DNA from: Loxodes magnus
Lineage: Eukaryota > Ciliophora > Karyorelictea > Loxodida > Loxodidae
Reading direction: 5' to 3'
NCBI GenBank assembly: GCA_946699065.1
Contig: CAMPDV010000945.1
Span: 78,622 to 142,621, forward strand
DNA length: 64,000 bases
Shown: piece after piece, positions 2,976-45,560 of the stretch
Numbering within the stretch: position 1 is the first letter of the stretch
Layout of the letters: every line of letters starts with the position of its first letter
Notes under the pieces: generated by a model
The model's input: the letters and a program-made list of their open reading frames with translations, nothing else
The model's database searches: none
What the model was told of the DNA's origin: nothing
Program-made: the position numbers and the translations under genes

Positions 2976-4026
2976 ATGATGATAGATGAATATCATATGA
3001 TTTTAACTTCAGAAAGTGCTGAAGTTAATCAAGGATCTTTTAGTATTTTCTTGACATTTGGTCGTTTGCTAGAGTTTAATACAAGCATTCTATTTATAAT
3101 AGCCTTTGAAATTTCGATCAAGTATTCTCCTAATGTAAAATCACTTTTGATAATCTAACTGTAAAGCTCTTTGCCGTTTTTCCTCTGAAAGAGATAAAAT
3201 CCATTAAAGCTGACAAAAATAAGTACTCTAATCGCTCAAATATATTCTTGTAAGCCGCTATGCTCTTTATCTCCAATTACTTAAGGTGACATATAACTAA
3301 AAGGGCATCAAAACATTTCTACCTTCTAACCAGGTGGAATTTTTGTTGAAAAGCCAAAGTTAATAAGTTTGACGCCTAACTAATAATCCGATTTATTGTT
3401 CTAAAGCAGAAAATTTCCTAGTTTAATATCTCTATGCGCAATGTTTAAATCATAGCAATAATCCAGAGCTTATAGCAGCTACTTAATTATCATTTTTGCG
3501 ATTTCTTCTGGAATCTGCGTTTAGTTTGTTTTTGAGAAATGTATACAATTCAGGTCCATCCATATATTTAGTTACCAGATTATTTGCTTATTTTAACTAA
3601 CTACCTCTTATAGCTTCGCTATGTTAGGATACCTTAGCTTTTGTAGTACTAAAATTTCTCATTTACTGATTTCATTCTATGTGTATCCATAAGCTTAAAC
3701 TTTTCATATACTTTTATAGCCACTTTTTGTTCACTGTACTTGTTTTTTCCATAAATCAGAGACGCATAAGCACCACGTCCAATTAATTTCCCTAGGCAGT
3801 AGTTATTTAGTGAGATTTTTCTCCCTGTAAAATTGCTGAAGGATTTAGAATCAGCTTATATAACTCATTTATCAGCTGGTTTTTCTTTCTCTACTTCATT
3901 GTTCTGAGCAAAATTTAACTGCCTCATATTGTATATTCCTGGATTATTTTTTCTTTTATTATCTTCTTCTAATTTTGAACAAAATACTTTGCTTAGATTT
4001 AATTTGTTGTATTTGATAGGAGACAT
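2976..4026 (-). pseudogene. Protein kinase, decayed or frame-broken
   Basis: Read on the minus strand from ATG at 4026, with a hydrophilic N-terminal region of about 75 residues and then a Ser/Thr-type kinase domain. Visible motifs in order are the glycine loop GRGAYASLIYG, VAIK with the ATP-anchoring lysine, YPNIAKL after helix C, the catalytic loop HRDIKLGN, NFG where DFG is normal, and SPQ in place of APE. The metal-binding aspartate of DFG is replaced by asparagine (AAC), so catalysis should be lost even if it is expressed. Three single-base frame changes are needed, two before and one after the YMDGPELYTF segment. TGA lies at the Trp of subdomain IX (YI-TGA-AI) and at the Trp of the C-lobe (DP-TGA-LTS). 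G-to-A changes are also seen at GGA to AGA. The kinase class is not clear. Confidence 0.85.
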
Positions 4027-10890: not shown

Positions 10891-11560
10891 TAAATCAACT
10901 AAAATTAGGAACAGCAAACGTAAGAGGAATCAAGTCAAACAAAATAGAACTAAGTAAATTCTTGCAAGACAAAGAAATAGATTAAATAGCGATTTTAGAA
11001 ATTTTTTGTGAATAAATATCGAAATACCAAAGATCTTTGGTTATCAGGCAATAAAAAACAGGATAGATATACACAGTAAGGGAGTAACCTTCTATAAAAA
11101 GAGCAAATTATAAACAGAATAAAAGAATGAGATGCAGTTGGACTTAATCAAGCTGAAATCATTTAGAGAGGAAGAATAATTTGCTTGTGAGAGGATAATA
11201 GGATAGCAATAATAAATGCATACACGCCCACAAAACAGAGCTGGAATAGTTAAATCCTTTTTATGTGGAATTAAGACAATTTATACGCATGACAATTAAT
11301 CAAGGATTATAGACATTAATTCAAGTTGATTTTAATGCGCATATTCTGTAATTCTTACCTTATGAATTAAATCTAGCAGGATAGCAATTATCGGATTTAA
11401 TGAGAGAATTTAAACTCAAATGCAAAGATCCAATCCAAGATCCAACTTTCCTCGATACATAAAGAAAAATAAAATTAAAAATCTCTACTTTCTAACTGAT
11501 CAATTTGTTACTTTGTAAATAATTAGTACTAAATTTTACCAAAGAAGGGTTTATTTGCTT
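10890..11560 (+). pseudogene. LINE APE-type endonuclease fragment
   Basis: This aligns by eye with the N-terminal endonuclease of the LINE ORF2 at 25-30 kb. It starts with LGTANVRGIKSNKIELSKFL and continues through the IDQIAILEI segment, then IPKIFGYQAI, DIHSKGV, ELRQFIRMTINQGLQ, VDFNAHI (catalytic D and N of the GDFNAH motif, with G lost), and CKDPIQDPTFLDT. At least three frame changes and a small deletion are present, so it cannot encode an active enzyme. It stops abruptly near 11540-11560, where the following segment of the same ORF appears in inverted orientation. Confidence 0.85.
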
Positions 11561-13940: not shown

Positions 13941-13944
13941 AAAA

Positions 13945-14672
13945 ATTAAATTTAAGTAAAACTGTTTTAATTTACTTAAAATTAAATTTAAGTAAAACTG
14001 ATTTTAATTTAATCAAAATTAAATTTAAGTAAAACTGATTTTAATTTAATCAAAATTAAATTTAAGTAAAACTTATTTTAATTTACTTAAAATTAAATTT
14101 AAGTAAAACTGATTTTAATTTAATCAAAATTAAATTTAAGTAAAACTGATTTTAATTTAATCAAAATTAAATTTAAGTAAAACTTATTTTAATTTACTTA
14201 AAATTAAATTTAAGTAAAACTGATTTTAATCGACTCAAAATTAATTTTAAGTAAAACTGATTTTAATTGACTCAAAATTAAATTTAAGTAAAACTTATTT
14301 TAATTTAATCAAAATTAAATTTAAGTAAAACTTATTTTAATTTACTTAAAATTAAATTTAAGTAAAACTGATTTTAATCGACTCAAAATTAATTTTAAGT
14401 AAAACTGATTTTAATTGACTCAAAATTAAATTTAAGTAAAACTGATTTTAATTTACTTAAAATTAAATTTAAGTAAAACTTATTTTAATTTAATCAAAAT
14501 TAAATTTAAGTAAAACTTATTTTAATTTACTTAAAATTAAATTTAAGTAAAACTGATTTTAATCGACTCAAAATTAATTTTAAGTAAAACTGATTTTAAT
14601 TGACTCAAAATTAAATTTAAGTAAAACTGATTTTAATTTACTTAAAATTAAATTTAAGTAAAACTGATTTTA
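13945..14672. repeat. 37-bp minisatellite, about 20 copies
   Basis: Tandem units of 37 bases, each with the core AAATTTAAGTAAAACTGATT (or ...CTTATT), followed by TTAATTTAATC, TTAATTTACTT, TTAATCGACTC or TTAATTGACTC. The four tail types recur in a partly regular order, which suggests higher-order duplication of several units together. Where the TTTACTT tail meets the next unit, TTTACTTAAA and TTTAAGTAAA form a perfect 10-bp inverted repeat with a 6-base loop, so many junctions can form hairpins. No coding frame is implied. Confidence 0.95.
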
Positions 14673-14699
14673 ATTTTAATTTTCTTACAAATATAAATA

Positions 14700-23338: not shown

Positions 23339-23411
23339 TCCACATTAGTCTAGCAGGTTAGGATATTCGGCTTTCACCCGAAAGACCCGGGTTCGAGTCC
23401 CGGATGTGGAA
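23339..23411 (+). tRNA. tRNA-Glu, anticodon TTC
   Basis: A complete cloverleaf. The acceptor stem TCCACAT pairs with ATGTGGA. The D arm lies around TAGTCTAGCAGGTTAGGATA. The anticodon stem TTCGG/CCGAA encloses loop CTTTCAC with anticodon TTC, and the T arm is CCGGG/CCCGG with loop TTCGAGT. There is no intron and no encoded CCA. A run of six T follows immediately (23412-23417), as expected for RNA polymerase III termination. The internal A and B boxes (including GGTTCGAGTCC) are intact. It reads GAA/GAG, so it says nothing about decoding of TAA, TAG or TGA. It stands alone, with several kb of AT-rich DNA on the left and 1.7 kb on the right. Confidence 0.97.
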
Positions 23412-25120
23412 TTTTTTATTTGATTTTTAATTTATTTGATGAAAGAATCAATAAAGTAAAAGTACCAATTTAGTTATTATTAAGATAAATATAAACAATT
23501 TTATTTACTTTAATAGTTCTTTTTTAATAAATAAGAAATTTAGTTTATCTAAATATTAAAAAATAGTATACAAAAAAGTTCTTTTCTCTAAGCTATTTCA
23601 AAAAGAATGAATTTTTTAGTTTCTAATTATGATATAAGTTATTAAATTGTTTATTAATTATTCAAATTGCTTAATTAAAAAATTGAGTTATATAGCTATA
23701 AATTATTAATACTTAAAATAAGCTTAATGATACATGTATTTAGATAAAATTTTATATTAGAAAGAGTAGTTTACTTATGCAGTTTTTAATTAATTTTTTA
23801 AATTTAAACTTTATTTATTAGATATTTATATAACTACATTTACCTGATAGCTTTTATGTATTAAAGTATAATTATATTAACATTCTAAATATTCAACTTT
23901 TAGCTTTGGTTAAAACTTTTCCAAAGTTCCTTCTATTAAAAATAATTTGTAAATAAGATATTGATACTATCTTATAAGAGATTATTGATTAAATGAAAGT
24001 GAATCTATACTCTTTTATAAGATATATCAATATCATATAATACTAAGCTTATTTTAGTAAAATAAAGCAAAAGTTTAATAATATTTCCCTAAAATTTAAA
24101 TTATATTTACATTCTAAAATAAAATTATAAGGTTAAATGATAAAGATAAAGTTGTTCTCTAATTTTTATAGTTAGTTCTTTTCATTTAAGCTTGCTAAAA
24201 TATATTAATATATTATTTAGATATAGATAGAATAGATTTCAGATTATTTATAGCTTATTTTTATAACATAATATTTAGAATATTTATCATTTTAATACTA
24301 ATTTTATATTTATATTAATTTATTTTCAGTCTTTTATAATGATAAAATTATAATAAAATTAATCTTATAATATTTTATAAGACATTTCAATAAACAGAGA
24401 AGCAAGTAATGGGATAGATATAATTATCCTATTTCTTTTACTTCATACATCTATTTAATTCTCAATTATCACCTTTTTATTTCTTTCCATCACTTCTTAT
24501 AAATAATAGTTTAAATATATCATCATTATTATTTATTATATAACTACATCTTATAAATATATCTAGAGTATTTAAGAATAAATTATAATTCTTCTATAAC
24601 TAATGCTTCTTTATTAAATATATATTTTCGGTTTCTAACTTTAAACTAAAAAAGTATCCAATTACTCTTTCTATTAACTTATAATCTTAATCGTTTATAA
24701 ATATAAATCTATTTAAAATGTATGAATAATTAAATTGGCTAAGAAATATTAATGTAGCAATCTATATTATATACAACTAATTATTTATGCTTAATTTACA
24801 TTTTATAATTCAAGTAAACACTTATTCAAAATAAATTAGCTTTGCTTTTCTACCTATTTCATTTTTAGTCTAGCCTTTAACACGTAAATATATAATAGAC
24901 ACGAAGTTTTCGTATTTTTGATGTGTTAACACATTTATAAATTTAAAGTTGTAAGAAAATAAAAGTTAATAAATGTTTAAGCTTCTACTCCTTATTGCTA
25001 TAATTGTAGAAGCTATTTAAGCAGAATATCTTAAGAATATGGAGTATAAATTCACCTACTATTAGTATTAATAATAGTTCTCTATTAATAGTTTTATTTT
25101 ATCTTATAAATTAATTAATT
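23412..25120. other. AT-rich non-coding stretch
   Basis: Between the tRNA gene and the 3' side of the LINE. No supported gene, array or RNA. Short repeated words such as ATTATTTAGATATAGATAGA are present but form no clear structure. Confidence 0.5.
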
Positions 25121-25329
25121 AAATTATCGTGGTACCACCTTTATTTGGATCACCACGGAAGTTAAAGAAACCAAATTTATATGTTAATAATAGGCTAGAA
25201 ATGATTCTAGCTTCATCTGGTCTCTTTGAATTTCTTGTGCTTCATCAAGTTCCTCTTCTAGCATATCTAATACCTACTAATTTGAGAGTTCAGGATCAAT
25301 TTCTTCTAAAAGATCTCTTTAGAGTAATT

Positions 25330-28300
25330 GAGCGTCAATTATTATTTATTAAATTTTTATCTTTTTGCTTGTTTATTTAATTACATTTCATCTGTATGTC
25401 TCTTTTTTGTATTTTTTAAGTTTTATTCTATCTATTTGTCAAATAAATTTCATTTTCTTTTTTCTACTTTTTATTTTTATTCATTGACTAGCTTTTTGAA
25501 TATTCAAGTGTGCTTACTTGACCCAGCTCTATAATCCTTACCTATTATTTTATTAAAAGGAAGGATTTTGTTTATATATCCCCGTCTTCTTTTTTCTAGT
25601 ATGCTTTTAATAAAATCTTTAATTCATGCATCTATTGAGCTTCTCTGATCTATTTGAAAAGACCGAATTCAATTTTCAAATTCAAAATTACCTCAAACTA
25701 TTTTGAATAAATTTAGTTTGGTCTACATAATATTTATTTAGGTTTAATTTTGTTCTATCGTATTTAATTTTTATTACAATTCTTCTCTTTCTTATTAATA
25801 TTATTCGCATATCTCAATTATATGGGCCTCATCATCTATCCCATTTCTGCACATATTACATATGTTATTTTCTATTAAATGCCTTACTTTCATTGTCTGT
25901 GCTGCACCGCTACATTTAGCTCTTAATCTGAATAGATAACAAATTTCTTATTTTCTATGCTTATTATATCTTAGGTAATTTGGAGGACCTTTTATAAAGG
26001 ATTCAAGTCATTGGCTTCTATAAATAAAGGTTGTTGTCATGTTTTCCATGCGAGTTAAAGCCTCTACTTTATTATGGAATTTTATAGCATCATTTATTAT
26101 TATTTTTATTTTTTAACCATTTCACTCGTCTTGCATTAAAATTTGATCGTTTAATCGTAGTTTTTCTAGCACTTTTTATGAGTAGATTTCAAATAAAAAG
26201 TTTTTTTATTTTGTGATTTAGCACATTCAACCATCCATAGTTGTTTCCTAGTTTAGGAGTAATTTTCGTCTGAACATCAGCATACGTTATCATAAATAGT
26301 ATTACATCTTAGTAAATTGTAATTCATTTTCAAGTATCTCGTTTTGAATACAGAATGGAGCATCTATTATTGCTCTAAGAGATCTTCGTTGAATTATTTC
26401 TAGTTTCTCTAGAATACTTTGTCCTATGAATTCTTCTATAAATGGAATGCATTCACTTCCATATCCAAAAATTTAGTTTACAAAGGCTTTTAGTATCATT
26501 TATGCATTATAGGCGGTGATACCTTTTTATATTGTGATCTTGTTTAAGATTCATGCTTGTGTTTTTTGACATTCAGAGATTCTAGATTCTAAGTGCTTTT
26601 CAAAAGATATTTCTTCCTGTAATAAATGTCCAATATATTTAAAAGTTTTCACCCTTTCTATTTGCATTCCATCTATATTTATTATTGTTTAGTTTTTTAT
26701 ACTATTTCCATTTCATAGTATTCATTTCGTTTTATCTGCTATTTACATTTTGTATTTTTTAGATCATGCTGTTAGAATATCACTTAGTTCTTGTATTTGT
26801 TCCGGTTGAACTATGCATGCTATATCATCCGTGTAAGCCAACGTACCACAATATCTTTGCCTTATACAGTATTCTGTTTCGAGTTCCATTGTTATTCCGA
26901 TCTATTTTTATCTTAATTCTTTTAAAAGTATATTTATTATAATATTAAAAAGATTAGGGGAGCATGTACATCCTTATTTAAAACCTTTCTCCGTTTCAAA
27001 CTTATCTGATATAAGATCATTTATTTTCAATTTGATGTCCTCTTCTCTATATATTTCTGCTAGTAATTTTATTAGTTTTTTTGGGACCTCGATTTCATTT
27101 AGGAAATGTCATATATCTGATCTTATTACAGAGTCTAATGCTTTCTTAATATCAATAAGTATTACTACTACTTCTGTGTTGCTTTAGTAGAGCCATTCTT
27201 ATATTGTCCTTATATTGAAGATTTGTTGGGCGCAAGATTTACTTGGTTTAAACCCATATTATAATTCATCATCCTGTCGTATTAAATATGAATTTAGTTA
27301 TTCAAATATTCATATGTCTATAATTTTTAAGATATGGTTAATAAGAGAAATGGGTCGATAATTCATTGGATCATTTGAGCTTCCTTTTTTGTGTATAAGT
27401 ACTATGTATGATTCTTTAATTTTTTTAGGAATAGTTCCTATCTCTAATATTTTTTTAACTAGTTAGGCAATTACCATTATCAATTACTTCCCTCCTGAGA
27501 TAATTGTACCTGTTTATATTTGGTCAGGCCCGGCTGCTTTTCATTGGGCTAGTTTTCTGATGCATTATTCTATATCAGTAATCTTGATTTCTATTGATTG
27601 CTAATTTTTGAATTAGTTTGGTAGATTGTTGTTTCCATTCTTATAAAGATTTTATCAGCTTATTTTGAAATGTTGAATGTCTTCTTCATTTACTAATGTT
27701 CATGGTGCTATTTTCCCTCTTTTAAATCATCTCCTTAATCCTTTTCATGTGTCATTAAGGTTCCCCTTATTGATTTTGTCGAGAAAAATATTGAATTAGT
27801 TTTTGCAGTCTTATTTCATATGTAATCTATATTTGAGCCTAAGTTCCTATCTTAGTTTAATTTCACGAATTGTTTCTAGCTCGCCTTGTCTTATTAATTG
27901 CTTTACTTTTTTTGCTTAGCTTTTGAATCTTTTCCTTGCTTACTTCGTTTCATCTGAGTAATAATGTTTTCTTGCTGTTTAGGTAGTGTGACCACATACT
28001 AAGACTGCGTTTTAATAGATTTTTTCTTATCATTTGACATAAAATTCTTCAGTGCTTAGATGTGAGAACCGATTTATGTCTGTTTCCTCAAACTATTTCT
28101 GAAATTTTTCTTAGACCAATTCTTGTTGGAGTTTTATAAATCAAATTCTCTTTTTCTACATATATTCACGACTTTTTTTAACTATTTGTAATATTAATCT
28201 TCCAGTTTGATGATCTCCTATTGTGCTGCGTTGGTAAAATTAAGTGTTAATGATATTGGGTGATATAAATGGATCTGTTAAGAAATAGTCAATTTTGAAT

Positions 28301-28886
28301 TTGCTTCTACCTTAAATTGTGATGTATGTTGGATCTTGTGTTGGGTCTTTGCATGTCAGATCAAATTCTTGCATAAAATTTAGTAAATGTTACCCAGCTA
28401 TATTTAGTTCATTTGGTAGAAATTATGGTATGTGAGCATTGAAATCACCCACTACTATTATTTGAAGTCCTAGACCGATTGCTGTGTGTACAAATTGTCG
28501 TAAACCGTCATAGAAAATATCCAGTTGTGCTTACTCTTAGGTTGTCGGAGCATAAATGTTTATTATTGCTAATCTGCTATCCAGATTTATACCTATTATA
28601 CGACTGCCCTGGTATAGTTCTATTTGGTTGAGACCCTCTATTTCTATTTCTTTTACTCTATCTAGTCATTTTTCTCTGATATAGAGTGCTACTCCTTTAC
28701 TATGATTTGTGTCTAACTTTATACACGCTCTGAATCCAAATAGTTGTGGCATATCTTCGAATTACGCTACATGTATTTCTTATAACGCCATAATATCTAT
28801 CATTTTTCTTCCATAAACTTTAGTAGTTAAGCTTTGTTTGATCTTATTCCTCTTATATTGGAGGTGCCTAAATTTATTCTTTTCAT
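25330..28886 (-). CDS. LINE ORF2: endonuclease-reverse transcriptase
   Basis: ORF2 nicks target DNA and copies element RNA at the nick. It begins at ATG 28886 (MKRINLGTSNIRGIRSNKAQ). The endonuclease shows IDIMALQEIHV, INIYAP, GDFNAHI (about 28438-28451), FKIDYFLTDPF and STIGDHQ. A basic linker follows, then the RT: KAAGPDQI, VLIHKKGS, NYRPISLINH, QYGFKPSKS, LIDIKKALDSV (motif A Asp), GFKQGCTCSP, and AYTDDIACI (catalytic DD with Thr for Ala, near 26824-26838). The C-terminal finger is CNMCRNGIDDEAHIIEIC. TAA encodes Gln in FKQG and QYGF. TGA stands at about 23 Trp-like codons, including the conserved Trp after motif C (TA-TGA-SKKY) and before KAAGPD; TGG appears once (EWLYQS). The C-terminus past 25600 is uncertain and may change frame. 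Confidence 0.93.
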
Positions 28887-30279
28887 TCTATTTGAGAAGA
28901 GTTATTTATTGAGTTTATTTGGGTATGGCTGATTTAATCTTAATCTTGTTCTATATTAGATTAGTCGCATGTGATATTGATTTTTGGTGCTATTACTTGT
29001 TCAACTTTTTGTAGGTTATTTTGTGAAATTATTTGTTAAGATTTAAATCCATAGTCTTCAAGGGTTTTATTCTTTTTTTAAATTCAAGTATATGTTTTCT
29101 GTCGAGATTATTACTGATTAGTTCTTTAGTTTCATCAGTGTTTTGGAGCTCAGCTTTGTTTTCTATGTGTTTTTTAAGTGAGATATTTCTTTTATCTTAC
29201 AACTTATGTTATTTATTCTTGTAGTTATATATCACTCTTCTTACCATTTTTCGTCGGCTTTAGAAGTTTGTCTTGCATTATAAAGCTTGTACTAGAAGCT
29301 CATGAGATTAGAAATAATTCCATTTTGTTTAAAATTAGGAATATTATTTTATTGATTATTGAGGAAATTACTTAGGATTCTCTTACATAACTTGTTCTTC
29401 TTTTTTAATTCCTATTTTTGCTTCTTCTTTCACATCCTGCAAAGAATTGCTACTTAGCTCAATCTACATCACATTGTTCTGAAGATTTTCTGCATCCTTT
29501 ATAATTGCTTAGATTGATTCCCTTCTTTTACACTGATATGTGCTATGTCCTACTGCTTAGCAGTTCTCGCATTTTCATATAGCTGAGTGATTTAGTCTAA
29601 CCGTCTTGTCCAGAATTTTTATTGAGTTTGGGATTTTCTAAGTGTCTTCTTGTCTTTCAAGTTGCAAGTATACAGTTATTTTGCCATTTAATCAGGTTGT
29701 ATTTTCGTAGGTATTAATGACCGTTTAGATAATTTTACCAAATTTTTTTAGCTGTACTTCCGTTTGGGCCGTTGTTAAGTCAATATCTAGGTTATAGTGT
29801 ACTGGGTAGTTTGAGTAGTTTTAATATTAGTCTATATTTCTTTTTTCAATTGGTATAACCAACGTCTTATATTTCAATTTAGTTTTTTATCCAAACTGTT
29901 CATATGCTTCTGAGTTTTTAAATGCTATAAGTACTATTCCTGTTTGTAGGACTTAAACCCTTGCAATGTTTTAATCGTAATTCTATTTCAGTTATTTAAA
30001 AATTTCTTGGATTACTTCATCTTATCCAATAATTTAATTATTTATGTTTTGATTGCCGTATGCCTGTTAAAGGTAGGAGTTAAAGTAGGCGACTCCTATT
30101 AATTTGGAGAAATTTTACTGAGCATTTCATGCACAGTTTGCAGATCCTATTGCTTATTCGTGCCTAATATTTGGACAATTTCTTCATATTCATTCTTTTG
30201 TACTGTTGCTAGAGCCGTTAGTTTTTTCCTATATTGTCTCTCGTTTTTTTTGGTTATAGATTTGTTGTTGTCTTTCCAT
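28886..30279 (-). CDS. LINE ORF1: nucleic-acid-binding protein with zinc knuckle
   Basis: Starts at ATG 30279 (MERQQQIYNQKKRETIQEKT) after a purine-rich leader. Domains in order are a Cys/His-containing segment near residue 40-65 (NCPNIRHEQ ... ANCAWNAQ), an RRM-like stretch near residue 130 (GIVLIAFKNSEAYEQFG), a long middle part, and a canonical CCHC knuckle near residue 240-255 (CENCQAVGHSTYQC; C-X2-C-X4-H-X4-C) at 29531-29575. A basic, Gln/Lys-rich tail follows. This is the expected RNA-binding protein that coats LINE RNA. Trp is TGA at five places (twice before the first Cys, in CA-TGA-NA, in TT-TGA-LN and just before the knuckle) and TGG once. No stop codon of any reading ends the frame before ORF2, so ORF1 and ORF2 overlap or are fused. 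Confidence 0.85.
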
Positions 30280-30479
30280 TCCTCCTTATAGTGTTTTACT
30301 TACTTCAGAAGTAATACTATTTTTTAGTGCTTTAGTACATTATAGTTTCCAGCGTATTTTTGGGGTGAGATGAGAAGGCTCCTTCATGTCTTTGGCTGTT
30401 CTTTATTATCTACTGCCGATTTGAGCGACATGCGAAGGCAGAGGATAGTTTTCAAATTACTAAGATCTATTTAAAAATA

Positions 30480-31640: not shown

Positions 31641-33130
31641 TTAGTAAGTTCAAATTTAATTTTCTTAAATAATAATATAGACAGTAAATGAATTTTATAA
31701 CTTTAATAAAGAGAAAGGTGAGTTTAAGATTTACTATATTTAAAAGGATGTAAGTCTTAAACAATAATAGGGAGTAAGTATTAAGTTATAATATTTAGAT
31801 GGTAAGTTAGTATTTAATAATTATTTAGCATGTAAGTTTCATTTCAAATGTTTCGCGATAAGATTGTAAGTATCGATGTTAATAAATTTCGTTTAAAGGG
31901 AGTAAGTTTCATTTTAATAATTATTACTTAATTTAGGTAAGTTTCATTTATAAAATTAACACTTAATATAGGTAAGTTTCATTTTAATAATTAACACTTA
32001 ATTTAGGTAAGTTTCATTTTAATAAGTATTACTTAATTTAGGTAAGTTTCATTTTAATAATTAACACTTAATATAGGTAAGTTAAATTTTAATAATTAAC
32101 ACTTAAGATCGTAAGTTTCATTTTAATAATTAACACTTAAGATTGTAAGTTTCATTTTAATAATTAACACTTAAGGATGTAAGTTAAAGTTTAAGGTGAA
32201 AATGAAGTTGGTAAGTTAAAGTTTAAGGAGAAAATGAAGCATGTAAGTTAAAGTTTAAGGTGAAAATGAAGTTGGTAAGTTAAAGTTTAAGGAGAAAATG
32301 AAGCATGTAAGTTAAAGTTTAAGGTGAAAATGAAGATTGTAAGTTAAAGTTTAAGGTGAAAATGAAGATGGTAAGTTAAAGTTTAAGGTGAAAATGAAGG
32401 GAGTAAGTTAAAGTTTAAGGTGAAAATGAAGATGGTAAGTTAAAGTTTAAGGTGAAAATGAAGCATGTAAGTTAAAGTTTAAGGTTACATTTAGAACGTA
32501 ATGTTCTATTTTAGGTTGTAAGTATTTTTTTATAGTTTATTTTTCAGATCGTAATGTGTTTAATATTGATTTAGGTAGTAAGTGTAATTTTATGGTTAAT
32601 ATAGAATGTAAGTAATTTTAGAATTATAAGGGGGTAATGAGGTCTTTTAAATAATTTTAAAGGATGTAAGGGATAATTCAATGTTATGTAGTGTTTTGAG
32701 AGTGAAGGACTTTACGAACAAATTAAAACTTTACTTAATTAAGAATTAAAAAATATTTATATTTATAAATATTATTTTCTTTTAAAGGTTAGGTAGTAAG
32801 TATATTTTATGTATTTATAAGTTTACTCTATAAGTTTACTCTATAAGTATATGTTTTTAAATAATAATAATAATTTATATAAGTTTATAATTATTAGATA
32901 ATTTCTAAGTAAGTATTTGGATATTATGTTATTATATATTTGTTTAAAATTGAGAAGTAGGGTTAACCTTAATGAGAGGTTGTTAAAGAGTAGTTTAGAG
33001 AGTTAGAGTAATAAATATTGTAAAATGACTGTGATGTGGGTGAGTATAGGTGTATAAAGTTCCTATTATTATTAAAAGTGTATATTTTAGTTTTTAAAAT
33101 TTAATTTATTTCTTAAGGTTTTAGTTGTAA
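31640..33130 (+). repeat. Array of repeats each headed by GTAAG(T)
   Basis: GTAAGT or GTAAG recurs more than 30 times on the plus strand, at spacings of about 30-60 bases. In the middle it forms two tandem arrays. The first, about 31926-32175, has a unit of about 35 bases (GTAAGTTTCATTTTAATAAT then TAACACTTAA...). The second, about 32176-32490, has ten units of 32 bases (GTAAGTTAAAGTTTAAGGTG then AAAATGAAG plus a variable triplet). The triplet before each GTAAG varies (ATG, TTG, CAT, ATT, GGA) while the rest is almost constant. Flanking parts have irregular spacing. The heading motif equals a consensus 5' splice site, but no downstream exons were found. Confidence 0.9.
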
Positions 33131-37738: not shown

Positions 37739-40497
37739 TTTAAAAAATTAAATTTATTTATAATAAATATTTTAGTTATTTTAATATCATTTAAGATTCT
37801 TATTTACACTTTATTTAAACTTAAAATGAGAAAAAGCATTTTTATCTTTGATAGTAACAAAAATTCTAATAGGTAATTCTTAATCTCTTTTTTCATCTTG
37901 AGAAATTAATAATTACAAATTTAGAAAAAAACTATTTTAAAAAATAAATGCTTCCTAATTTTTATTTGATATAAATGCAAAATTATTTTTATAAAATTTC
38001 TTGTATTTTGATAAATTATTTCTTCGAACTTTTAAATTAAAAAATACAGTAAATAAAATTAATGAATTACTTTTATTTAAATCCAATTAAAAGAGATTTT
38101 AAATAACTTAAATTCAAAGAATAAAAATTTTATTTTTTTAAACAAATAAATACATTATTTTCACAATATTTTTATGTAATAAAAAACATATTAATATTTA
38201 TAAATAATAAGAAAAGTATTTTTTAAACAAACAATTACAAATGTTTAACAAAATCTTAAATATGGAATAACAAAAAAGTTTATCTTAGTTTAATTATAAA
38301 TCTTTTTCCAATTTTTATAAAATTTGAAAAACATATTTAAAATGTGAAATTTTTTAAATTTAAAGAAAAATAATCATCATTTTAATTTTTATTAAATTAT
38401 TTTTAATGATTAAAGAAATCTTATTAAGCAATAATTATAAAAAATAAATTATAATTTATCACTAAGATAGAAAAATACTGAAAATTCAAAAAAGCATTTA
38501 AAAAAATTAAAAAAACATAAAAATTTATAGATAAAAATGTAAGAAAATATTGAAGGATGAATATTTTAACCTGAATATTCTTTAGTTATTTTAATAAAAT
38601 TTATAAGCAAAAGATATTTCATAAAATAATTATGAAGGTAACAAATAATTTAGAAAACATTAATTTAGTTAAATTTAAAAAATTAAATTTATTTATAATA
38701 AATATTTTAGTTATTTTAATATCATTTAAGATTCTTATTTACACTTTATTTAAACTTAAAATGAGAAAAAGCATTTTTATCTTTGATAGTAACAAAAATT
38801 CTAATAGGTAATTCTTAATCTCTTTTTTCATCTTGAGAAATTAATAATTACAAATTTAGAAAAAAACTATTTTAAAAAATAAATGCTTCCTAATTTTTAT
38901 TTGATATAAATGCAAAATTATTTTTATAAAATTTCTTGTATTTTGATAAATTATTTCTTCGAACTTTTAAATTAAAAAATACAGTAAATAAAATTAATGA
39001 ATTACTTTTATTTAAATCCAATTAAAAGAGATTTTAAATAACTTAAATTCAAAGAATAAAAATTTTATTTTTTTAAACAAATAAATACATTATTTTCACA
39101 ATATTTTTATGTAATAAAAAACATATTAATATTTATAAATAATAAGAAAAGTATTTTTTAAACAAACAATTACAAATGTTTAACAAAATCTTAAATATGG
39201 AATAACAAAAAAGTTTATCTTAGTTTAATTATAAATCTTTTTCCAATTTTTATAAAATTTGAAAAACATATTTAAAATGTGAAATTTTTTAAATTTAAAG
39301 AAAAATAATCATCATTTTAATTTTTATTAAATTATTTTTAATGATTAAAGAAATCTTATTAAGCAATAATTATAAAAAATAAATTATAATTTATCACTAA
39401 GATAGAAAAATACTGAAAATTCAAAAAAGCATTTAAAAAAATTAAAAAAACATAAAAATTTATAGATAAAAATGTAAGAAAATATTGAAGGATGAATATT
39501 TTAACCTGAATATTCTTTAGTTATTTTAATAAAATTTATAAGCAAAAGATATTTCATAAAATAATTATGAAGGTAACAAATAATTTAGAAAACATTAATT
39601 TAGTTAAATTTAAAAAATTAAATTTATTTATAATAAATATTTTAGTTATTTTAATATCATTTAAGATTCTTATTTACACTTTATTTAAACTTAAAATGAG
39701 AAAAAGCATTTTTATCTTTGATAGTAACAAAAATTCTAATAGGTAATTCTTAATCTCTTTTTTCATCTTGAGAAATTAATAATTACAAATTTAGAAAAAA
39801 ACTATTTTAAAAAATAAATGCTTCCTAATTTTTATTTGATATAAATGCAAAATTATTTTTATAAAATTTCTTGTATTTTGATAAATTATTTCTTCGAACT
39901 TTTAAATTAAAAAATACAGTAAATAAAATTAATGAATTACTTTTATTTAAATCCAATTAAAAGAGATTTTAAATAACTTAAATTCAAAGAATAAAAATTT
40001 TATTTTTTTAAACAAATAAATACATTATTTTCACAATATTTTTATGTAATAAAAAACATATTAATATTTATAAATAATAAGAAAAGTATTTTTTAAACAA
40101 ACAATTACAAATGTTTAACAAAATCTTAAATATGGAATAACAAAAAAGTTTATCTTAGTTTAATTATAAATCTTTTTCCAATTTTTATAAAATTTGAAAA
40201 ACATATTTAAAATGTGAAATTTTTTAAATTTAAAGAAAAATAATCATCATTTTAATTTTTATTAAATTATTTTTAATGATTAAAGAAATCTTATTAAGCA
40301 ATAATTATAAAAAATAAATTATAATTTATCACTAAGATAGAAAAATACTGAAAATTCAAAAAAGCATTTAAAAAAATTAAAAAAACATAAAAATTTATAG
40401 ATAAAAATGTAAGAAAATATTGAAGGATGAATATTTTAACCTGAATATTCTTTAGTTATTTTAATAAAATTTATAAGCAAAAGATATTTCATAAAAT
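37739..40497. repeat. 935-bp satellite, three tandem copies
   Basis: Copies at about 37739-38673, 38674-39608 and 39609-40497 (the last lacking its final ~46 bases). The phrase AAAAAATTAAATTTATTTAT starts at 37742, 38677 and 39612, giving a period of exactly 935. I saw no difference between copies in any compared line, so the array is either very young or homogenised, or was duplicated during assembly. The unit is extremely AT-rich and carries no believable gene. Such large-unit tandem DNA is typical of germline-limited or centromeric regions, but there is no direct evidence for a function here. Confidence 0.97.
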
Positions 40498-42930: not shown

Positions 42931-45560
42931 TAAGATCAATTTTATTCCTTCCACTAGGCTGAGTTTTACCATTCGCTTCTCATTATCCTTTCTCAGTTTC
43001 CTAACCTCTGCTTGGTGGTTTATCACTATTTAATCAGCCACTCCAAGCTCATCTGGCTAGAATTTTTAATTTCGGACACACATATGCCCGATAGATCCAA
43101 AGATGTAAATTAGTAATTCATCCGATTCAATATCGTTATACTATTAGTTGCCACTATTTATAAAGAAACATTAGTACTGGACATTCTCACTATCTCCAAT
43201 ATATTTTATTACACACTTGAATTATTATTTGCAGAATTTGAATTATAAATCTCTCCCACAAACTATAGTATCTCCAGATTGTCCACTATCAAAAATTTGT
43301 TTATATTGTGAACCTCTATTGCTTATGCCTTAGCGGATGAAACTAAATCTATAATATTTTTTGCCACATAGTAATCTCTTATCAATGCATGAATAAACTC
43401 AAACCTCTTTTTATTATTCTATTCCTTTGTCTATATCAAACGCCCTATATGGTTTTAATCGTCCGTAAACTACTCTATCCACTTTTGATTCACTTCATCA
43501 AAGCTTGATATCTCCACCGAACCCTGTAACATCTCCCATGCCGCATTCACTTAGATAGTTTCAAACAACTTTATTTACTAGTTGAGCACCTTACTTTTTA
43601 AACCCTGATTTTACAATTTTTCTTAGGTTCTTTTGTTTCACTAAACTATGAAAATCTCATATATTCTAGACTTTTAAACTACTTAACCACTTTTTAAATA
43701 ATCTAATATCTCTTCCTCACTCAAACAAATATATAGCAGAAAGGGATTACTGATAATTTCATCAGACCAGGTATTCTCTATATTAATGCCATCATCTCTT
43801 ATATTTAAGATGCTTCCACTTGACTTGCACTTTATTATTACTGGTTCTTCTTAACTAGGACTTTTTCTATATATTTTTCTATCTAGCGATATCGAATGGC
43901 TTTATATACAGTTCCTATAACTCTTATAATTAAACTCTTTCGCTACTGTATGGTGAAAAATAATGTTGGTAATTTTTTCTTTTAATACATAATTTACCCT
44001 ACATGTTATTATATATTTTGCCTGAGGATACTTTTGCTTTAATTTATTACTACTTATAATAGCCTTGCATTCTCCCAACTCATCATACGCGTCAAATAAG
44101 AACAGAATCTTTCTAAATTTCAATGTCTCATTTCTTTCTATTTAATAATTATCTAAAGCAGATTCTATTAATTTGTTTTCGAATGCTTTTATAGTTGGGA
44201 GATACACATATATGGATAAGTATTCATGTTTCTAGTCTAGATATTTTAAGGCTAAAATCTTCAGGAACAAGGACTTTCCAGAACCGGAATCTCCCAGAAG
44301 TAATAATCCTGTCTTAGTATCGTTTTCTAAAAATTTCAAAATTTCAAGGTCAAGATCATCCTCAGCTTATGAATTAGGATTAGGAGCGCAAAGTAAGCTT
44401 ACGTAATATTCTTGCTTCTCCGAAACCTCTTCTTTTAAAGTCCTTATCATATTTTAATATATACTACTGCTAATGCCCTTAAATGCCAACCAATTCTCTT
44501 CTATTGTTTAAGTAAATAAAACAAAATGCTCTGGATCCATTAATAATTCTAGAATTATCTAACGCTCTTTTACATTCTTGCTTAAGTTCTCTTTTTTTAA
44601 CTTAAATATTCTTTCCTTATAAGTGCAAGCTATTTGGTTCTTTTCTAAAGTCAATTCCAAAAATGTCTTCATTGCATAGTACCTTATCTACTAATTCTGT
44701 ACTAGCTTACGGGTTTTTTATCATGTGTTATAGAAGATAGCATGCTCTAAATCTTAAGTCTATTTTTCTTTCAAAACAATATCTCAAAATTGGTAAAAAA
44801 TTTATTTTGAGTATTGTCTAAATAAATCACATGCAAGAGCATCTAAGACTCGTAATCTAATAATCTTTTTATAGTTGAGCTTCTAATTTACCCAACCTTT
44901 TCCTCATAAGAAAAACTCCTTTATAATAGAGATCGCTTCTGACCCTATAACTCCAACTTCAAACGTCAAGGCAATTATTCATTAAGCAACTTTTAAAATT
45001 TTACATAGAATTCCAAAATATTCGGTTTCTTTGCTATCTGGAATATTCTCCAGAATCATCAAACTAAATCTTAAGTACAAATCTGGTTCTGGACCTCCAA
45101 TCCTATTTTTATTTTTATTTACTAACTTTAAGCTATCATTTATTTTTAAAATGAGCTCTTCTTTTGTTTTTTCATTTATAAAGGAGTTTTACTCGTTCTT
45201 CTAAAGCAACACAGCCAATAACTCAGGAAGATTTCGTACAAGCTACTCCTTCAAGAGCTAAGACCATCCTTCAGCATACTTATGGGAAATAATTTCAATG
45301 AATTGATTTATAAGAACTAATGGATCATTGATATTGGCAAACTTATTCTTTTGAATTGTTTGAATTCCTTGTAGAACTTTAACCATCTTTTATTCATTCA
45401 AGCCTTCTTTTAAGAGCTACAATCCTTCTTGATAATCTTTTGTTCCTTATTACCAAAAATTTGTTCATTTTCTTGATATTTCTAACTTTTATCATTGCTT
45501 AACCCTTATTTTGATACTGGCTAATTACTCTACTTATCTTTATTTTTTTAATCTTTAAAT
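42930..45560 (-). CDS. NACHT-type STAND NTPase with helical-repeat N-terminus
   Basis: One minus-strand frame is continuous for over 2.5 kb. The N-terminal third is helical and Leu-rich (LQLLKEGLNEQKMVKVLQGI, LVLINQFIEIISHKYAEGW, LYLRFSLMILENIPDS), like HEAT/ARM repeats. The NTPase follows: Walker A GDSGSGKSLFLKIL (44267-44300), Walker B KILFLFDAYDELG (about 44085-44115) and a sensor-like YIITCRVNYV, then a winged-helix-like part with NPFLLYICLSEEEIL and FEFIHALIRDYYVAKNI, which resembles the NACHT-associated FxHxxxxEYxxA motif. STAND proteins act as ATP-switched sensors. About eight Trp codons are TGG and at least five in-frame TGA sit at Trp-like positions (KVAQ-TGA-II, EFFL-TGA-GKGW, FYQF-TGA-DIV). 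The Walker motifs are intact. Its ligand and partner are unknown. Confidence 0.85.

Follow-up and report, generated by a model that had tools for sequence, protein, structure and literature searches.

The ambiguous genetic code of karyorelict ciliates, NCBI translation table 27, was reportedly described in Loxodes and Parduczia by Seah in 2022. For Parduczia, the same code is described by Swart in 2016 (PMC4967479). The published account of the macronuclear assembly of Loxodes magnus describes 706 megabase pairs read with table 27, short 3' untranslated regions and UGA as the sole stop codon, transcripts in which UAA and UGA are depleted ahead of the stop-UGA, and about 2,700 copies of RVT_1 along with two families of long interspersed nuclear elements (LINEs) of 5-6 kilobases (PMC11441545). 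In this study, we analyze a window, by which we mean a whole stretch of 64,000 nucleotides of nuclear DNA from contig CAMPDV010000945.1 of L. magnus, and the LINE encoded on its minus strand. We regard it as practically certain that L. magnus uses table 27 and that this LINE is an ordinary non-LTR (long terminal repeat) retrotransposon following the code of its host. The code, the organism and its LINEs are already published (PMC11441545), and our analysis is hence a correct re-derivation and not a new finding.

Three features define the element:

25334..30411, minus strand: LINE open frame, read with UAA and UAG (together UAR) as Gln and UGA as Trp; zinc knuckle, endonuclease, reverse transcriptase, C-terminal Cys motif
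28207..28569, minus strand: endonuclease domain Exo_endo_phos_2 (Pfam expect value E 6.3e-9)
26626..27396, minus strand: reverse transcriptase (RT) domain RVT_1 (Pfam E 1.8e-22)

If no codon stops, the LINE frame (phase of base 30450) runs unbroken from about 30411 to 25334 and spans these homologous domains. Matches of its product to Pfam were scored with an X at every stop codon, that is, with no codon meaning assumed; Exo_endo_phos was matched as well (E 5.1e-7), and among structures in the PDB the product matched LINE-1 ORF2p (E 3.2e-15) and R2 chains. An APE-type endonuclease and a reverse transcriptase thus lie within one protein by Pfam, as is characteristic of a non-LTR retrotransposon. 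In the translation there is also a motif, CENCQAVGHSTYQC, at 29530..29571 on the minus strand, which we take to be a CCHC zinc knuckle.

A preceding reading of the window by a model that saw its letters alone (hereafter the sequence-only reading) had counted about 28 TGA and 2 TGG codons in the LINE frame between 25330 and 30279, and our recount agrees. The whole frame from 30411 to 25334 holds 28 TGA, 3 TGG, 87 TAA and 15 TAG codons, the third TGG being located at 30351, outside that interval. The Trp share, previously put at about 1.7%, amounts to 1.83% of 1692 codons when TGA is counted and to 0.18% when it is not.

The meaning of these codons was assessed against 49 outside homologues in 61 aligned rows. 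At TGA columns, Trp is enriched 4.4-fold, more than any other residue. Gln is enriched 3.8-fold at TAA columns and 3.6-fold at CAA columns, and the TAA claimed to encode the Gln of FKQGC indeed aligns to Gln of human L1 ORF2p. The six TAG columns taken alone are not Gln-like, Glu being the most enriched residue there. The proposal that the TGA ahead of KAAGPD marks a classic Trp position was overstated, as this place is mostly taken by Gly, Asn or Lys in the outside homologues; in eight diverged copies from the same genome the TGA is retained throughout (8/8).

These copies come from a search of the assembly (705,730,643 bases, 7843 contigs) with the RT stretch, which gave 7672 first-look candidates, 102 of them scored. 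The window's own subfamily, here called A, is represented by 28 loci including the window's copy (L045, which is also the reference row); two of 30 loci (L053 and L070) were left out as identical to others over the RT stretch. Across these 28 loci, TGA is retained in 242 of 246 cells. The eight diverged copies are only 46-63% identical and have the same codons as the window copy in 24-28% (62% for one), and the nine TGA columns of the window hold in them 47 TGA, 11 TGG, five Glu codons, one TAG and one Tyr codon, so TGA or TGG occupies 58/65 cells. The reverse comparison gives a related picture: the 84 cells in which a diverged copy has TGA face TGA (47), Cys (7), Glu (6), TGG (5), Ser (5) and other codons (14) in the window copy. 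Exchange in this direction is also seen at one of the LINE's own Trp codons:

27193..27195, minus strand: TGG of the LINE; the seven diverged copies aligned there have five TGA and two TGG

The TGA that follows RT motif C (TA-TGA-SKKY, 26764..26766, minus strand) had been singled out as a Trp site, and this holds well, with TGG in seven and TGA in one of the eight diverged copies. Such exchanges argue that TGA and TGG act as synonyms, and UGA is read as Trp in the LINE. At TAR columns, the diverged copies have TAR in 34 and CAR in 25 of 134 cells, Lys (27) being the commonest single residue, and at CAR columns TAA is present in 29 of 120 cells.

Host genes tell the same story, beginning with one encoded in the same window:

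3029..3673, minus strand: protein kinase segment (Pfam Pkinase E 7.1e-30)

In an alignment with MARK4 made with X at TGA, the TGA at 3238 faces the Trp of DIWSLG and that at 3031 the Trp of KDKW; a third, at 3310, faces Cys. Genome-wide, the kinase motif DVWSLGC with TGA or TGG (TGR) at its Trp position was found at 640 sites, none being found with the reversed control, and 588 of these sites carry TGA. UGA is therefore read as Trp in host kinases as well. A preference for UGA peculiar to the LINE is unsupported: its 28 TGA among 31 TGR codons fit the A-ending share of its other two-fold codons (482/590; P = 0.16), so no special preference is needed, and the kinases are similarly rich in TGA.

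At the ends of host genes UGA has a second role. Each of the nine sites at which the C-terminus of histone H4 was found with TRR (R, A or G) after it has TGA and none has UAR, all 10 fetched actin loci end in TGA (near-identical loci, with 96 matches in all), and both eRF1 genes stop at TGA, their Trp codons all being TGG. No UAR was found as a gene end among these nine H4, 10 actin and two eRF1 ends, which represent three gene families. UGA consequently doubles as a stop, which goes beyond what the sequence-only reading had seen. A pattern for actin ends proved too loose (3257 matches vs. 493 in the control) and was not used. The two eRF1 genes (L002 and L003) are near-identical, and a further locus (L001) is a third match to the family. 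In other eukaryotes a characteristic motif of eRF1 has the form TASNIKS; in the two L. magnus genes this region is strongly altered and reads HGRAQNIKS.

With respect to the decoder, a tRNA-Trp pattern with the anticodon YCA (Y, C or U) matched the genome 126 times and the control not at all. Among 100 listed matches, 98 are identical over the pattern, and these are arranged in tandem on the contigs C67 and C148. The copies read on C67 have the anticodon CCA and 27A opposite 43C, and hence an anticodon stem of four base pairs (bp). A tRNA-Trp(CCA) with such a stem decodes UGA in Blastocrithidia and Condylostoma reporter systems and is reported for Loxodes (PMC13092985, PMC12005148); from this published work we infer that it would decode UGA in L. 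magnus, and its gene dosage may help. The tRNA-Trp(CCA) arrays extend over C67:482321-491201 and C148:155462-168941, with a spacing of about 187 and 241 bases, respectively. Arrays are not peculiar to tRNA-Trp, as tRNA-Lys is arrayed likewise. A first tRNA-Trp pattern had yielded one match vs. one control match, which equals chance, and a genome search with RF00005, in which 63 of 42,786 candidates were scored and the 30 loci read centred on tRNA-Lys, does not amount to a tRNA census.

Taken together, UAA and UAG stand for Gln, UGA stands for Trp inside genes, and UGA is the stop at the tested host gene ends, as table 27 has it. Under table 6 (Tetrahymena, Paramecium), UGA would be purely a stop, which it is neither in the LINE copies nor in the kinases. 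The sequence-only reading had proposed UGA as Trp, UAR as Gln and a code of the Parduczia (karyorelict) type, and both the LINE copies and the host kinases support it. The raw sequence of a single mobile element hence sufficed to recover a rare genetic code, which host genes of the same genome confirm. Mechanistically, the LINE would be translated under the same code as the host genes, UAA and UAG being read as Gln and UGA as Trp within genes and as a stop close to the ends of messenger RNAs (mRNAs). Termination at UGA would be governed by its closeness to the mRNA 3' end, a position rule that derives from published work.

Several observations weigh against table 27 as the code of L. magnus and its LINE. 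Trp accounts for just 22 of the 371 residues that the outside homologues have at TGA columns, Ile being commoner at 59. The LINE copies lack independence, with about ten flanks among the 28 loci and about three subfamilies among the eight diverged copies, and the kinase sites likewise contain repeated copies, with 65 TGA among the first 100 TGR places listed. Two single tRNA-Trp(CCA) genes on contig C110 have positions 27 and 43 paired and thus a full 5-bp stem, and a differently stemmed UCA tRNA would have been missed by the pattern limited to the anticodon UCA, with which no tRNA-Trp(UCA) was found in the genome. Moreover, there is no terminal UGA in LINE subfamily A (27/28 loci), a lack that table 27 does not predict. 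The sequence-only reading had itself named what would speak against it, namely conserved genes that use only TGG for Trp and end in TGA, together with the lack of a tRNA-Trp(UCA). Part of this was found, since TGA does terminate host genes, the Trp codons of eRF1 are all TGG, and the one pattern detected no tRNA-Trp(UCA); the kinases, however, carry TGA, and the proposed meaning of UGA is not refuted.

The missing terminal UGA directs attention to the 3' end of the LINE, for which two further features matter:

25106..25340, minus strand: C-terminal and 3' end segment; window copy out of RT frame (small frameshift); TTAA-rich tail near 25106
25184..25186, minus strand: TAA after LESFLAYY; candidate terminator, kept in 28/28 loci, 77 bases before the element end

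The element reaches beyond 25330, its 3' end being located at about 25106. Homology to the window stops at 25106-25108 in 14 of the 30 loci and at 25087-25096 in five; in the remaining 11, the window's copy included, it reaches the end of the compared stretch, because the loci fall into groups with common flanks. Many loci are therefore duplicates of one insertion, about ten different flanks remain, and it is on these different flanks that the predicted boundary near 25106 is based. The loci of the window's subfamily (L045-L074) appear as insertions copied along with their surroundings, or as alleles. The frameshift in the C-terminal part of the window copy is common to three loci of its flank group, and other copies are open. 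Overall, 10 of the 28 subfamily A loci have their C-terminal part in frame with the RT, three being left unassigned by motif. Judged by end coordinates only, the same applies to three of eight places of the subfamilies A' and B (C1110, C3199 and C1601), the other five (C890 twice, C469, C374 and C820) being out of the RT frame.

In subfamily A the C-terminal frame reads ...LLEEID...LESFLAYY-TAA, and between this TAA and the element end there is no in-frame TGA in 27 of the 28 loci; in L054 the first in-frame TGA occurs at codon 24, at the junction. The other subfamilies end differently. All six copies of A' end in ...NLNQ-TGA, five codons past the TAA place, where four of them have TGA and two TTA; they have one common flank and may be duplicates of one insertion. 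Both copies read of B, whose flanks differ, end in ...LLEEIDMY-TGA.

From this comparison of sequences, UAA would serve in subfamily A as a position-dependent terminator near the mRNA end while encoding Gln elsewhere in the same frame, a proposal that we consider rather improbable. Its low weight follows from the many loci that are duplicates with common flanks (about ten different), and just 10/28 keep an intact net frame between RT and C-terminus. Alternatively, ribosomes may read through into the tail and flank; in 17 of the 28 loci the flank has an in-frame UGA 29 to 73 codons downstream, and in 10 the compared flank stretch contains none. Polymorphism in subfamily A gave no signal of selection, as there is no synonymous excess in the coding frames and the control frame shows one (13/24, P = 0.007), and a hairpin at the 3' end of the LINE was no better than in shuffled sequences (z -0.40). 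The UAA end of subfamily A may be a new point. If true, UAA would keep a position-dependent stop role in a karyorelict with UGA at its host gene ends, which would matter for understanding how single stop codons are retained or lost in ambiguous codes.

The same UAA speaks for a Condylostoma-type code (table 28), under which host genes may stop at UAA and UAG as well: it is the only former stop that subfamily A offers near its 3' end, and UAA is depleted ahead of the stop-UGAs in L. magnus transcripts (PMC11441545). However, all nine H4 ends are UGA and none is UAR, and the published work on L. magnus gives UGA as the sole stop (PMC11441545), which makes table 28 very unlikely. A decayed pseudogene under a Tetrahymena-type code, with ordinary stop mutations as its TGA codons, is a reading of the LINE to which we give next to no chance. 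The frameshifts in many copies (as said, C-terminal part and RT agree in frame in 10/28 loci) and the lack of a synonymous excess would fit such decay, but TGA is conserved and swapped with TGG across subfamilies of 46-63% identity, and host kinases have TGA at the invariant Trp of DVWSLGC; the diverged copies and the kinase sites together refute it. Nor do we give any real credence to UGA as Cys, as in Euplotes, to which the 7/84 cells facing Cys codons and the single kinase TGA aligned with Cys would point, as the window's TGA columns hold 11 TGG and no Cys in 65 cells of the diverged copies, Cys is enriched there just 1.5-fold vs. 4.4-fold for Trp in outside homologues, and the kinase DVW sites have TGA at Trp.

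Pfam scans covering part of the frames in the other portions of the window revealed few families. A weak match to Exo_endo_phos_2 at 11253-11465 on the plus strand (E 0.0022, below the curated cut-off) is perhaps a second LINE fragment, and a NACHT/STAND NTPase-like match at 43905-44303 on the minus strand (E 2.3e-5) falls just under the curated cut-off. Tandem repeats with 37-base and 35/32-base units, and units of about 935 bases indicated by the spacing of equal open frames, lie within 13942-14676, 31902-32485 and 37893-40488, and the GC skew is strong (0.655) at 32-34 kilobases. The sole tRNA found in the window is a tRNA-Glu (TTC) at 23339-23411 on the plus strand.

How, then, does the locus compare with the systems described so far? 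The published LINEs of L. magnus likewise combine RVT_1 and Exo_endo_phos_2 in one element and are multicopy. Condylostoma magnum (table 28) likewise uses all three stops as sense codons, and the reports on it likewise describe a 4-bp-stem tRNA-Trp(CCA) and mention no tRNA-Trp(UCA) as found (PMC4967479, PMC13092985). In Condylostoma, however, UAA and UAG are stops at host gene ends too, whereas in Loxodes the H4 ends are UGA in 9/9 cases. From the karyorelict table 27 of Loxodes and Parduczia the window's LINE subfamily A departs in having no terminal UGA, whereas the tested host genes show no difference. UAR stands for Gln, and UGA for Trp in genes and for a stop at host gene ends, in the same manner as in table 27, and the kinases, H4, actin, eRF1 and tRNA-Trp confirm this code at the level of individual genes.

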